A stretch of 43,975 nucleotides of DNA from Rhodospirillales bacterium (GTDB taxonomy: Bacteria; Pseudomonadota; Alphaproteobacteria; Acetobacterales; Acetobacteraceae). The notes below the pieces were generated by a model. It ran no database searches and was not told the origin of the DNA. It saw only the letters and a list, made by a program, of their open reading frames with translations. This document shows positions 12,459-32,626 of this stretch, in pieces. The translations under genes and the position numbers were made by a program. Every line of letters begins with the position of its first letter. Positions within the stretch are counted from its first letter, which is position 1. The stretch is from contig JANXVC010000125.1 of assembly GCA_025351925.1 (NCBI GenBank), positions 1 to 43,975 on the forward strand. Reading direction: 5' to 3'.

Positions 12459-13372
12459 TGCGCATACTCATGGTCGGCGCCGGGGCGATCGGCGGCTATT
12501 TCGGCGGCCGGATAATCGAGGCGGGTCAGGACGTGACCTTCCTGGTCCGGCCGCGCCGGGCCGCGCAGATCGCGGCGGACGGCTTGGTGATCCGCAGCCC
12601 GCGGGGCGACGTGACGCGCCCGGTGCAGACCGTCCAGGCAGCCGCGCTCGGCGGCCCGTATGACGCCGTGGTGCTGAGCTGCAAGGCGTTCGACCTCGAC
12701 GACGCGATCGCCTCTTTCGCGCCTGCGGTAGGGCCGGACACTGCCATCCTGCCGCTGCTGAACGGCATGCGGCATCTGGACGTGCTGGACACCAGCTTCG
12801 GCGCCGGCGCGGTACTGGGCGGCCAGTGCCAGATCGCCGCCACATTGGAGCCGGACGGCACCATTCGGCACTTGAACGACCTGCAGGCACTTTCACTTGG
12901 CGAACGCGGCGGCGCCATCACGCCGCGAGTGGAGGCTTTGGGTGCGGCCTTCGCCGGCTGCGGCGGGCGGACCAGCGAGACGATCGTGCAGGACATGTGG
13001 GAGAAGTGGGTGTTCCTGGCCTCGCTGGCCTGCCTCACCTCGCTGATGCGCGCCTCGGTCGGCGACGTTGTGACGGCGGGCGGGACGGAGATCGCCCAGG
13101 GCCTGTTCGATGAGGCCGCCGGCATCGCCACCGCGCACGGCCATGCGCCGCGCCCGGCCTTCGTCGAGCGGATGCGCGGCATGCTGGGGCAGGCGGGCTC
13201 GACCTTTACCGCGTCCATGCTGCGCGACATCGAGCGCGGCAACCCGATCGAGGCCGATCACATCGTGGGCGACCTTATTGCCCGCGGCATGACGGCGGGC
13301 ACGCGGCTGCTGCGGATTGCGTTTATTCACCTTAAGGCCTACGAGGCGCGCCGGGCCCGCGAGACAAGCTGA
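12455..13372 (+). CDS. 2-dehydropantoate 2-reductase family protein (ApbA/PanE-like)
   Basis: MMRILMVGAGAIGGYFGGRIIEAGQDVTFLVRPRRA...LSCKAFDLDDAI...LLNGM; start overlaps the MATE stop (ATGA). Confidence 0.88.
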   Translation: MMRILMVGAGAIGGYFGGRIIEAGQDVTFLVRPRRAAQIAADGLVIRSPRGDVTRPVQTVQAAALGGPYDAVVLSCKAFDLDDAIASFAPAVGPDTAILPLLNGMRHLDVLDTSFGAGAVLGGQCQIAATLEPDGTIRHLNDLQALSLGERGGAITPRVEALGAAFAGCGGRTSETIVQDMWEKWVFLASLACLTSLMRASVGDVVTAGGTEIAQGLFDEAAGIATAHGHAPRPAFVERMRGMLGQAGSTFTASMLRDIERGNPIEADHIVGDLIARGMTAGTRLLRIAFIHLKAYEARRARETS

Positions 13373-29577: not shown

Positions 29578-30794
29578 TCGAGCATCCCCGGCGCAACCGC
29601 GCGCCCGGCTTCATGACCCGCGCGATCCATCACGGCTTTGACCGCACGACGGCCGAGGGCGCGCTGATTCCGCCGATCTACATGACCTCGACCTACGCCT
29701 TAGAGACCAGCGCCGAGAGCGAGGCGATCGCCGCCGGCGAGTCGCTGCGTCCATTGTATGGCCGCGAGGAGAACCCCACCCAGTCGGTACTAGAGGCCCG
29801 GCTCGCCAACCTCGAAGGCGCCGAGGCCTGCGTCGTGTTCGCGTCCGGCATGGGGGCGGTCGGCTCGCTGATGCTGTCGCTGCTGTCGCAGGGCGACGAG
29901 CTGGTCGTGCATCGCACGGTGTATTCGAACACCTTCGCGCTGACCCAGGACGCGCTGCCGCGGTTCGGCATCAACGTCGTGCCGGTCGATATGTCGGAGC
30001 CCGCCAACCTCGACGCCGTGCTGTCGCGCGCTACCCGGATGGTCTATTTCGAGACGCCGGTGAACCCGACGGCCGAGGTGCTCGATATCGCTGCCATCGC
30101 CGCTCGGGCTCGCGCGGTGGGCGCGATGGTGGTCGTGGACAGCACTTACGCCTCTCCGGCCCTGCAGCGCCCGCTGGAGCACGGCGCGCATCTCGTGCTG
30201 CACGCGCTCACCAAGTACATCAACGGCCACGGCGACCTGCTGGGCGGCGCGATCCTCGGCGACTTCGCAACGACAGAACAGATCCGCCGGCATGGCCTCC
30301 GCTACATCACCGGCGCTACGATGTCGCCGATGTCGGCCTTCCTGGTGCTGCGCGGCATGAAGACGCTGGCGCTGCGCATGGAGCGGCACGGCCAGACGGC
30401 GCAGCGCATCGCCGAGATGCTGGCCGGACACGAGGCGGTGGCGCAAATCCGCTACCCCTTCCTGCCCTCCGACCCCGGCTATGCGGCGGCCCGGCGGCAG
30501 ATGGCGAACGGTTCGGGGATGCTGTCGTTCAGCCTCGTTTCCGGCAATGCCGGCGCGGACCGCTTCATGGACCGGCTCAGGCTCGTGCTGCGCGCGGTCA
30601 GCCTTGGGGATGCTGAGTCGCTCATCATGCGCCCGGGCGCGCTGCTGCGCGGCGCACTCCGCGCCGATCCCACTGCCCGCATGGCCGGCGGCGTAGATGA
30701 GCCGATGATGCGGCTTTCGGTGGGGCTGGAGGACGCCGACGACCTGCTCGACGACCTGTCGCAGGCGCTGGAGGCGATTTCAGCGACGGGCTGA
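29574..30794 (+). CDS. Cys/Met metabolism PLP-dependent enzyme (cystathionine gamma-synthase/lyase family)
   Basis: YGREENPTQSVLEARLANLEGAEACVVFASGMGAV; VVDSTYASP; LHALTKYINGHGDLLGGA. ATG overlaps the preceding TGA. Confidence 0.93.
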   Translation: MIEHPRRNRAPGFMTRAIHHGFDRTTAEGALIPPIYMTSTYALETSAESEAIAAGESLRPLYGREENPTQSVLEARLANLEGAEACVVFASGMGAVGSLMLSLLSQGDELVVHRTVYSNTFALTQDALPRFGINVVPVDMSEPANLDAVLSRATRMVYFETPVNPTAEVLDIAAIAARARAVGAMVVVDSTYASPALQRPLEHGAHLVLHALTKYINGHGDLLGGAILGDFATTEQIRRHGLRYITGATMSPMSAFLVLRGMKTLALRMERHGQTAQRIAEMLAGHEAVAQIRYPFLPSDPGYAAARRQMANGSGMLSFSLVSGNAGADRFMDRLRLVLRAVSLGDAESLIMRPGALLRGALRADPTARMAGGVDEPMMRLSVGLEDADDLLDDLSQALEAISATG

Positions 30795-30904
30795 CAGATC
30801 GGCCCGGCCGATGACGCCTTGGACGCCGCCTGGCATGACGTACACTTGGTTTACGGTGTCGTAACATTGAGCTTAATGTCACCGGGAAGATCCGAGGGTT
30901 CGCC

Positions 30905-32374
30905 ATGGCCGCCACGTTCAACGTCCAGTTCACCGACGCGCCCGATCCCACCCTGGTCAGCCCCGAGCCGATCCGGGGATTGCTGACCCAGGCCCTGAAC
31001 GACTGGACCCGGCATTTCGACTATACGACCGGCACCTACACGGTGACTGTCGCGTTCCGCATCCTGTTCTCCTCGCCGGACGTCAGCCTCTCGATACCAT
31101 CCTTCACCGTCGTCGGGGGCGGCCAGTTTCCCGTGCCGGTGGAGCCCTCGTTCGGTTTGGCCGTCGCCGGCCGGGCAGCGGACGCAGTGGCGCCGTTGGA
31201 GCTGTCCGTCAACACCGCTTACCGCTTCGGCGCCCTGCCGCTCGCCGGGCTGCTGGGACCGATCGAGCGGGAACTCGGCCATGCGCTGGGCATCAAGGCG
31301 TTCTCGATCGGGATTGTGCATGGCCCGCTGCTGCGGTCGCAGTTCACAGTCTATGACAACGGGGTGCGCGAGGTCTCGTTCGGCCCGCCTGCAGCGGCCT
31401 ATGTTGGACCTTATGCGCAAGCCGCGTTCGGCGGCCCGGTGCCGCTGGTCGAAGCGAATCCGGACACCACGACGGCGCGCGGCCGCGTCACCGTGGACAG
31501 CATCAACGAGCCCGCGAGTACGCTGCAGCCGCTGGACGTCGCACTGCTGCGGGACGCCGGGCTGCCGGCCCTGAGCGACCAGGAAATAGGCGAGCACCAG
31601 ATCGCCCGGCTGTATGTCGCAGCCTTTGGCCGCAACGCCGACAGCGCTGGGCTGATCGGCAATTATGGCGTGCTGCGCAATGGCGGAGTGCTGCAGCAGA
31701 TCGCCGGCCGCCTGGTTGCCTCAGCCGAGTTCGCCAACCGCAACGGCGCGCTGTCCGACGCCGATTTCGTCAGGCTGCTGTATCAGAACGCGCTGGGCCG
31801 GGTCGCCGGCCCTGCGGACCTGCAGTTTTATCAGGGCCTGCTGCAGCGCGGATTCGACCGCGGCACAATGCTGGCGGCGTTTTCGGAGGGCGAGGAGGCG
31901 CGGAGCCGGCTGCAGGCCAATCCCAACGTGACCTACGCCGCTGCGGCCGAGGCTCAGGTGGCCCGCATCTACGACACCGCGTTCGGGCGGGATGCCGACC
32001 CGCGCGGCTTCACCGGATACGTCCAGGCCGTCATCACCGGCGCCACGCTGCAGCAGGTGGCGCTGTCGTTCATCGGATCCGCCGAGTTCGCCAACCGCTA
32101 CGGTGCGGCACCTTCGGATGGGGCGCTGGTGGATGCGCTCTATGCCAACACCTTGCATCGCGGTGCGGACGCCGCGGGCCGGGACCTGTATGTCCGCGCA
32201 TTGGGCTCTGGGCAGCTTAGTCGGGCGGGCGCGTTCATCGCGTTCTCCGAGAGCACGGAGCACGTGAACCTGATCGCCCAGCGAGCGGGCGCACGGGACG
32301 CGGCGGGCTACAACATCGACCTCGCGCCGCATCTGGGCGTGATCCCGATGATCAGCGGCCCCATTGCAGGATAA
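30905..32374 (+). CDS. DUF4214-containing secreted-type protein with degenerate metalloprotease-like N-terminal domain
   Basis: Two tandem DUF4214-like units (QIARLYVAAFGRNADSAGL...; QVARIYDTAFGRDADPRGF...); N-terminal IERELGHALG in the place of a zinc HELGHALG motif. Confidence 0.82.
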   Translation: MAATFNVQFTDAPDPTLVSPEPIRGLLTQALNDWTRHFDYTTGTYTVTVAFRILFSSPDVSLSIPSFTVVGGGQFPVPVEPSFGLAVAGRAADAVAPLELSVNTAYRFGALPLAGLLGPIERELGHALGIKAFSIGIVHGPLLRSQFTVYDNGVREVSFGPPAAAYVGPYAQAAFGGPVPLVEANPDTTTARGRVTVDSINEPASTLQPLDVALLRDAGLPALSDQEIGEHQIARLYVAAFGRNADSAGLIGNYGVLRNGGVLQQIAGRLVASAEFANRNGALSDADFVRLLYQNALGRVAGPADLQFYQGLLQRGFDRGTMLAAFSEGEEARSRLQANPNVTYAAAAEAQVARIYDTAFGRDADPRGFTGYVQAVITGATLQQVALSFIGSAEFANRYGAAPSDGALVDALYANTLHRGADAAGRDLYVRALGSGQLSRAGAFIAFSESTEHVNLIAQRAGARDAAGYNIDLAPHLGVIPMISGPIAG

Positions 32375-32401
32375 AAAAAGGCGGCACCCGAAGATGCCGC
32401 C
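32373..32401 (-). terminator. intrinsic terminator of the candidate sRNA
   Basis: GGCGGCATC-UUCG-GGUGCCGCC followed by U7 on the minus strand; the A7 tract abuts the stop codon of the plus-strand DUF4214 gene. Confidence 0.85.
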
Positions 32402-32446
32402 AAGTTTAGGGAGGAAACGTCCGCAGCATGACAAAGCCATGCTGCA
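32373..32446 (-). ncRNA. candidate trans-acting sRNA with UUUCCUCCCU anti-SD motif (MmgR/alpha-r8-like architecture)
   Basis: Minus strand: TGCAGCATG-GCTTTGT-CATGCTGC (8-bp stem) - GGACGTTTCCTCCCTAAACTT - GGCGGCATC-TTCG-GGTGCCGCC (9-bp stem with one U-G) - TTTTTTT; promoter-like elements directly upstream. Confidence 0.8.
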
Positions 32447-32452
32447 CCGCAC

Positions 32453-32481
32453 AAGATAGACCGTTCGCGCTCCAATGCAAG
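32453..32481 (-). promoter_or_regulatory. sigma70-type promoter for the sRNA
   Basis: Minus strand: CTTGCA (32481-32476) - 17 bp - TATCTT (32458-32453); predicted +1 near 32446. Confidence 0.6.
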
Positions 32482-32626
32482 AAGGAAATCTGCGGCTGTG
32501 CGATTTTTACCGTCGCGCTGCGCGATACGGGTTTTGCCGCGCGAAATTCTCCGTCTGAGTCAAAGCAGTAGCGAATTGTTATAAAAGTTGCGCTAGGCTC
32601 GCGTCACCATAACACACGGCGAAAAC

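Follow-up and report, generated by a model that had tools for sequence, protein, structure and literature searches.

We show that positions 32446-32373 on the minus strand of the window, i.e. the whole stretch of 43,975 nt that was analysed, are a genuine alpha-r8 sRNA gene. It adds one more member to an sRNA family that is already known and widespread; the new point of our analysis is the predicted control of alpha-r8 by PhaR, both for this gene and for most of its family relatives. It is highly probable in our judgement that the product acts in trans as an alpha-r8 RNA, blocking Shine-Dalgarno sequences with the aid of Hfq and being repressed by PhaR, which would link carbon stores to mRNA silencing. 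The host genome is an Acetobacteraceae MAG of 5.92 Mb in 547 contigs, and the gene comprises the following features:

32373-32446, minus strand: alpha-r8 (RF00519 suhB/mmgR) sRNA, about 74 nt, 5' end predicted; cmscan 48.0 bits
32476-32481, minus strand: -35 element CTTGCA, read from the sequence; kept in both orthologues and in most class-A relatives
32453-32458, minus strand: -10 element TATCTT, read from the sequence at 17-bp spacing; TATCTT or TACCTT in the orthologues
32446, minus strand: predicted +1 T, preceded by GTGCGG in the sequence
32423-32445, minus strand: 5' hairpin GCAGCATG...CATGCTGC, as RNA GCAGCAUGGC-UUU-GUCAUGCUGC; 10 bp in the MFE fold
32408-32417, minus strand: seed UUUCCUCCCU (anti-Shine-Dalgarno), the same in 59 relatives and the family-defining motif (PMC12559287)
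32373-32401, minus strand: Rho-independent terminator with C(UUCG)G loop and U7, from pattern scan and covariation
32401-32393/32388-32380, minus strand: terminator stem, UUCG loop between the arms
32379-32373, minus strand: U7, read from the sequence
32437-32457, minus strand: predicted PhaR/AniA operator ATCTTGTGCGGTGCAGCATGG, spanning -10 to +10; 17.2 bits

The family, listed in Rfam as suhB, 'Makes More Granules Regulator RNA', is the only one to exceed its Rfam threshold in the 44-kb window: cmscan gives 48.0 bits, the gathering score being 41 (E 5.8e-7 for the whole window), and the match at 32365-32439 covers model positions 1-77. The initial annotation had placed a minus-strand promoter, a hairpin, a linker motif, a UUCG terminator and U7 here, all of which we found at their positions on re-reading the sequence, and its likening of the RNA to alpha-r8/MmgR is borne out by the score above the curated cut-off. 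No match to alpha-r14, alpha-r15 (AbcR) or CcsR was listed in the Rfam scan at E up to 10, for which Rfam 15 may lack models. A simple sigma-70 scan makes no promoter call at CTTGCA/TATCTT; CTTG[CA] stands at the -35 place in 129 of 165 class-A relatives compared to 342 of 7628 control windows (4.5%), and CTTGCAT together with GTCTAYCTTGTGC is kept in both same-genus orthologues (G001, G002). The sRNA folds with an MFE of -36.4 kcal/mol, whereas dinucleotide-shuffled sequences reach -19.7 +/- 2.6 (z -6.4). The seed, proposed earlier as exposed, is left mostly unpaired by MFE prediction, though not entirely, because of a weak 3-bp GGA/UCC pairing.

A comparative alignment had been proposed as a check on the RNA. 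Among 59 aligned class-A relatives the seed UUUCCUCCCU is invariant, and 7 of 10 consensus pairs, namely all seven of the terminator, stay paired in some sequences although both bases have changed, i.e. the terminator stem covaries; the 5' region is stably folded in these 59 despite its varying sequence (median z -2.3). The RF00519 cut-off is passed in 120 of 150 Acetobacteraceae genomes, with a match at E <= 1e-4 in 123 of 150. Class A has the sequence ...GGACGTTTCCTCCC... and class B the sequence hairpin-TGCCGTGTGACTGGCGTTTCCTCCC...; the window copy is of class A, yet the usual CTTTCTT spacer has been lost in its genus, resulting in a hairpin that abuts GGACG directly. Three copies in the own genome lie above the cut-off (C7, which is the window, C354 and C339), weaker ones exist too, and the diverged class-B sibling C162 holds the exact core.

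Several further observations concern the copies. In the class-B copies of the genus (L004; L212) the terminator stem is followed by CACTCCTTTCTTG or CACTCCTTCTTTG and not by a clean U-run, and tandem alpha-r8 copies 200-1100 bp apart occur in several Acetobacteraceae (L110, L129, L194, L313, L363). Two paralogous stretches of the own genome, G000:C135 and G000:C289 (L005, L006), have a partial alpha-r8-like core and a strong hairpin, no clean U-run, and adjoin similar downstream ORFs. A neighbouring N-formylglutamate amidohydrolase (FGase) gene is usual for one alpha-r8 copy and is not required for membership; the linkage is retained by many Acetobacteraceae relatives and was not found in this genus, the own FGase gene lying on C103 with no core nearby.

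The operator prediction uses a motif built from 23 S. meliloti PhaR sites whose promoters showed binding in vitro (PMC12542648 Table 3), with mmgR left out. The held-out mmgR site scores 21.4, and the threshold of 14 is the lowest training score (14.0); the scan covered 100 bp before the core. At 17.2, the operator of the window copy is predicted from this motif as the single site of at least 14 in the window. A site of at least 14 is present at 154 of 190 alpha-r8 loci (81%) compared to 0.16% of 3070 random windows from the same loci. In the set of loci found without a sequence pattern, 54 of 59 class-A loci have such a site; for class-B loci, of the GTGTGAC/GTGTGATC/GCGTGAC type, the figure is about 2 of 18, tallied by eye. 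The sites cluster at about -100 and about -50 from the core, corresponding to positions upstream of the -35 element and at the transcript start.

An alpha-r8 sRNA that is not controlled by PhaR, the dyad representing no more than promoter sequence together with the hairpin's 5' arm, is the alternative that survives best, and we consider it unlikely. It draws on the right half of the window operator overlapping the 5' hairpin, by which the conservation of the operator is partly explained through RNA structure, and on the own copies C339 and class-B C162, for which the motif scan finds no scoring operator. Against it, a motif taken from S. meliloti still finds 81% of the loci, the class-B siblings are mostly devoid of it, and many relatives have a second PhaR site, which lies upstream of -35 and thus beyond the transcribed part, so that it is not a by-product of RNA structure; in the window copy this second upstream operator is not recognisable. 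PhaR control of class-A copies, as the preferred reading, is also consistent with PhaR binding the mmgR promoter in vitro in S. meliloti (PMC12542648).

The own genome holds five exact copies of TTGTGCRNYGCASMA, at this promoter, at two phasin promoters, beside C162 and on C36, the same operator thus lying upstream of two own phasin genes; no PHB gene was found alongside the C36 operator. The motif scan found no PhaR site at the own phaR locus, and the motifs of S. meliloti phaR/phbAB are also below threshold (PMC12542648). As a separate observation, a perfect palindromic PhaR-like site TTGTGCGACGCACAA at L334:1501-1515 (G000:C162:13552-13566) has the class-B sRNA copy on one side and the gene of a class II aminoacyl-tRNA synthetase on the other. 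The own genome has a phaR gene (C247) beside thiolase and short-chain dehydrogenase (SDR) genes, as read from ORF sequences, and also hfq and phasin genes. Across the 150 genomes, PhaR (PF07879) and RF00519 are both present in 118 and both absent in 26, with five having the sRNA only and one PhaR only (Fisher p 4.7e-23, the genomes being related and kinship being ignored); a small number of losses may account for this co-occurrence. Among the five sRNA-only genomes, three are less than 90% complete. In one of the five, G012, which has no PhaR match, the sRNA gene is without operator, and the other four have one.

The locus was also compared with the two same-genus orthologues. Around the sRNA, similarity to them is confined to 32373-32503, about 130 bp comprising promoter and sRNA, the upstream sequences being different. 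Downstream of the sRNA, homology to G001 and G002 returns only at about 30787 of the window, so the DUF4214 gene is missing at both loci. This gene (window 30788-32374), which here separates the sRNA from the gene that follows, looks like an insertion at the sRNA gene's 3' end; the homology break coincides with the last U of the sRNA terminator.

A plus-strand element, in which AGGGAGGAAACGTCCGCAGCATG would provide a small gene with its ribosome-binding site and start, the hairpin lying in the leader, is extremely improbable. The complement of an anti-Shine-Dalgarno seed is always Shine-Dalgarno-like and an ATG does follow at 32428, but it is the minus strand that carries the U-run, the promoter and the match to the RNA model, the hairpin with the ATG varies freely among copies, and Corbino et al. 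gave up a cis-acting suhB reading for an opposite-strand ncRNA; we rejected the small ORF on this variation and on the orthologue comparison. That the structure is a mere 3' terminator of the convergent DUF4214 gene and no separate sRNA, as the contact of its stop codon (32372-32374) with the hairpin might suggest, is scarcely credible, given that the plus strand has no U-run after the stem and that the same-genus orthologues retain promoter and sRNA without the DUF4214 gene.

The minus-strand alpha-r8 RNA very probably blocks ribosome-binding sites of mRNAs, and the trans-acting anti-Shine-Dalgarno masking put forward in the initial annotation is supported, this mechanism being published for the Caulobacter homologues (PMC12559287). 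Pairing gives no support to phasin targets. Ranking the pairing over 122 own gene starts, taken from rough gene calls, the three own phasin leaders pair with the seed no better than the median gene (ranks 61, 75 and 91 of 122), and phasin mRNAs were rejected as direct targets, their pairing being ordinary. This suggests that PHB may enter the circuit via the promoter, phasin mRNAs not being needed as direct targets.

The best target candidate from sequence complementarity is the mRNA of a horizontally acquired Rieske oxygenase gene that stands behind a GntR gene (G000:C52:13002). An exact 21-mer complement of GACGUUUCCUCCCUAAACUUG lies over its ribosome-binding site (L227:4982-5005, i.e. G000:C52 at about 12982-13004), and the duplex with this leader reaches -35.5 kcal/mol compared to a median of -11.6. 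The gene was not found in the 40 relatives searched; Caballeronia plasmid homologues are about 80% identical with ordinary leaders, and the extended complementary match was not found upstream of them. The match is a single case and may have originated by chance recombination with an sRNA copy. Exact AGGGAGGAAA occurs at nine places in the own genome, comprising four sRNA genes, the C52 leader and four elsewhere; in this search by exact AGGGAGGAAA only, none of the nine is an obvious sponge.

We propose a model according to which about 74 nt would be transcribed from the minus strand, and together with Hfq the exposed UUUCCUCCCU seed would pair to purine-rich Shine-Dalgarno regions of several mRNAs, blocking their translation. 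PhaR, a PHB-responsive repressor, would sit across -10/+1 and hold transcription down until PHB granules titrate it away, upon which sRNA transcription would rise. The masking step is carried over from Caulobacter SisA, for which it has been shown, and we infer the PhaR step from the operator found here, repression and binding being published for S. meliloti mmgR. PhaR control combined with Shine-Dalgarno masking would thereby couple carbon-store status to the silencing of a set of mRNAs. With somewhat less assurance, we favour a wider picture for Acetobacteraceae, in which PhaR, as sensor of PHB granules, would control class-A alpha-r8, in many cases from operators flanking the promoter, but not class B. 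PhaR-to-alpha-r8 would then form a PHB-sensing circuit conserved across Rhizobiales and Acetobacteraceae, into which, in this genome, the Rieske mRNA would have been drawn by its 21-nt match. Through the operator result, the circuit known from S. meliloti is extended to Acetobacteraceae in the form of a prediction testable family-wide, namely that PHB status controls alpha-r8 transcription, with the distinction of class A and class B giving a rule for which siblings should respond to PHB; as far as we found, the link of PHB and alpha-r8 has so far been experimental only in S. meliloti.

Alpha-r8 RNAs are known as MmgR in Sinorhizobium and as SisA-D in Caulobacter. The founding description of the suhB element (RF00519) by Corbino et al. 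2005 gives an opposite-strand ncRNA with promoter and terminator, often in several copies; the same applies here, the window copy differing just in its own sequence and its neighbours. In Caulobacter crescentus, SisA-SisD are likewise siblings in several copies, which have this 10-mer seed in common and differ in their promoters. For them, anti-Shine-Dalgarno repression by the 10-mer has been shown, as have dependence on Hfq and titration by CrfA, a sponge; PhaR control is not among the features described in the available text (PMC12559287). The sponge search here was by exact AGGGAGGAAA only. MmgR of Sinorhizobium meliloti resembles the window sRNA in layout and seed, with a length of 77 nt compared to about 74 nt here and a PhaR/AniA operator at both promoters, i.e. 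CAATTGTGCACCGCAGCATTA in mmgR and, as predicted here, ATCTTGTGCGGTGCAGCATGG in the window. S. meliloti has no copy besides MmgR (PMC12559287), compared to several copies in this genome, and, unlike MmgR, the window sRNA has a 10-bp 5' hairpin leading straight into GGACG and an operator placed over -10/+1.
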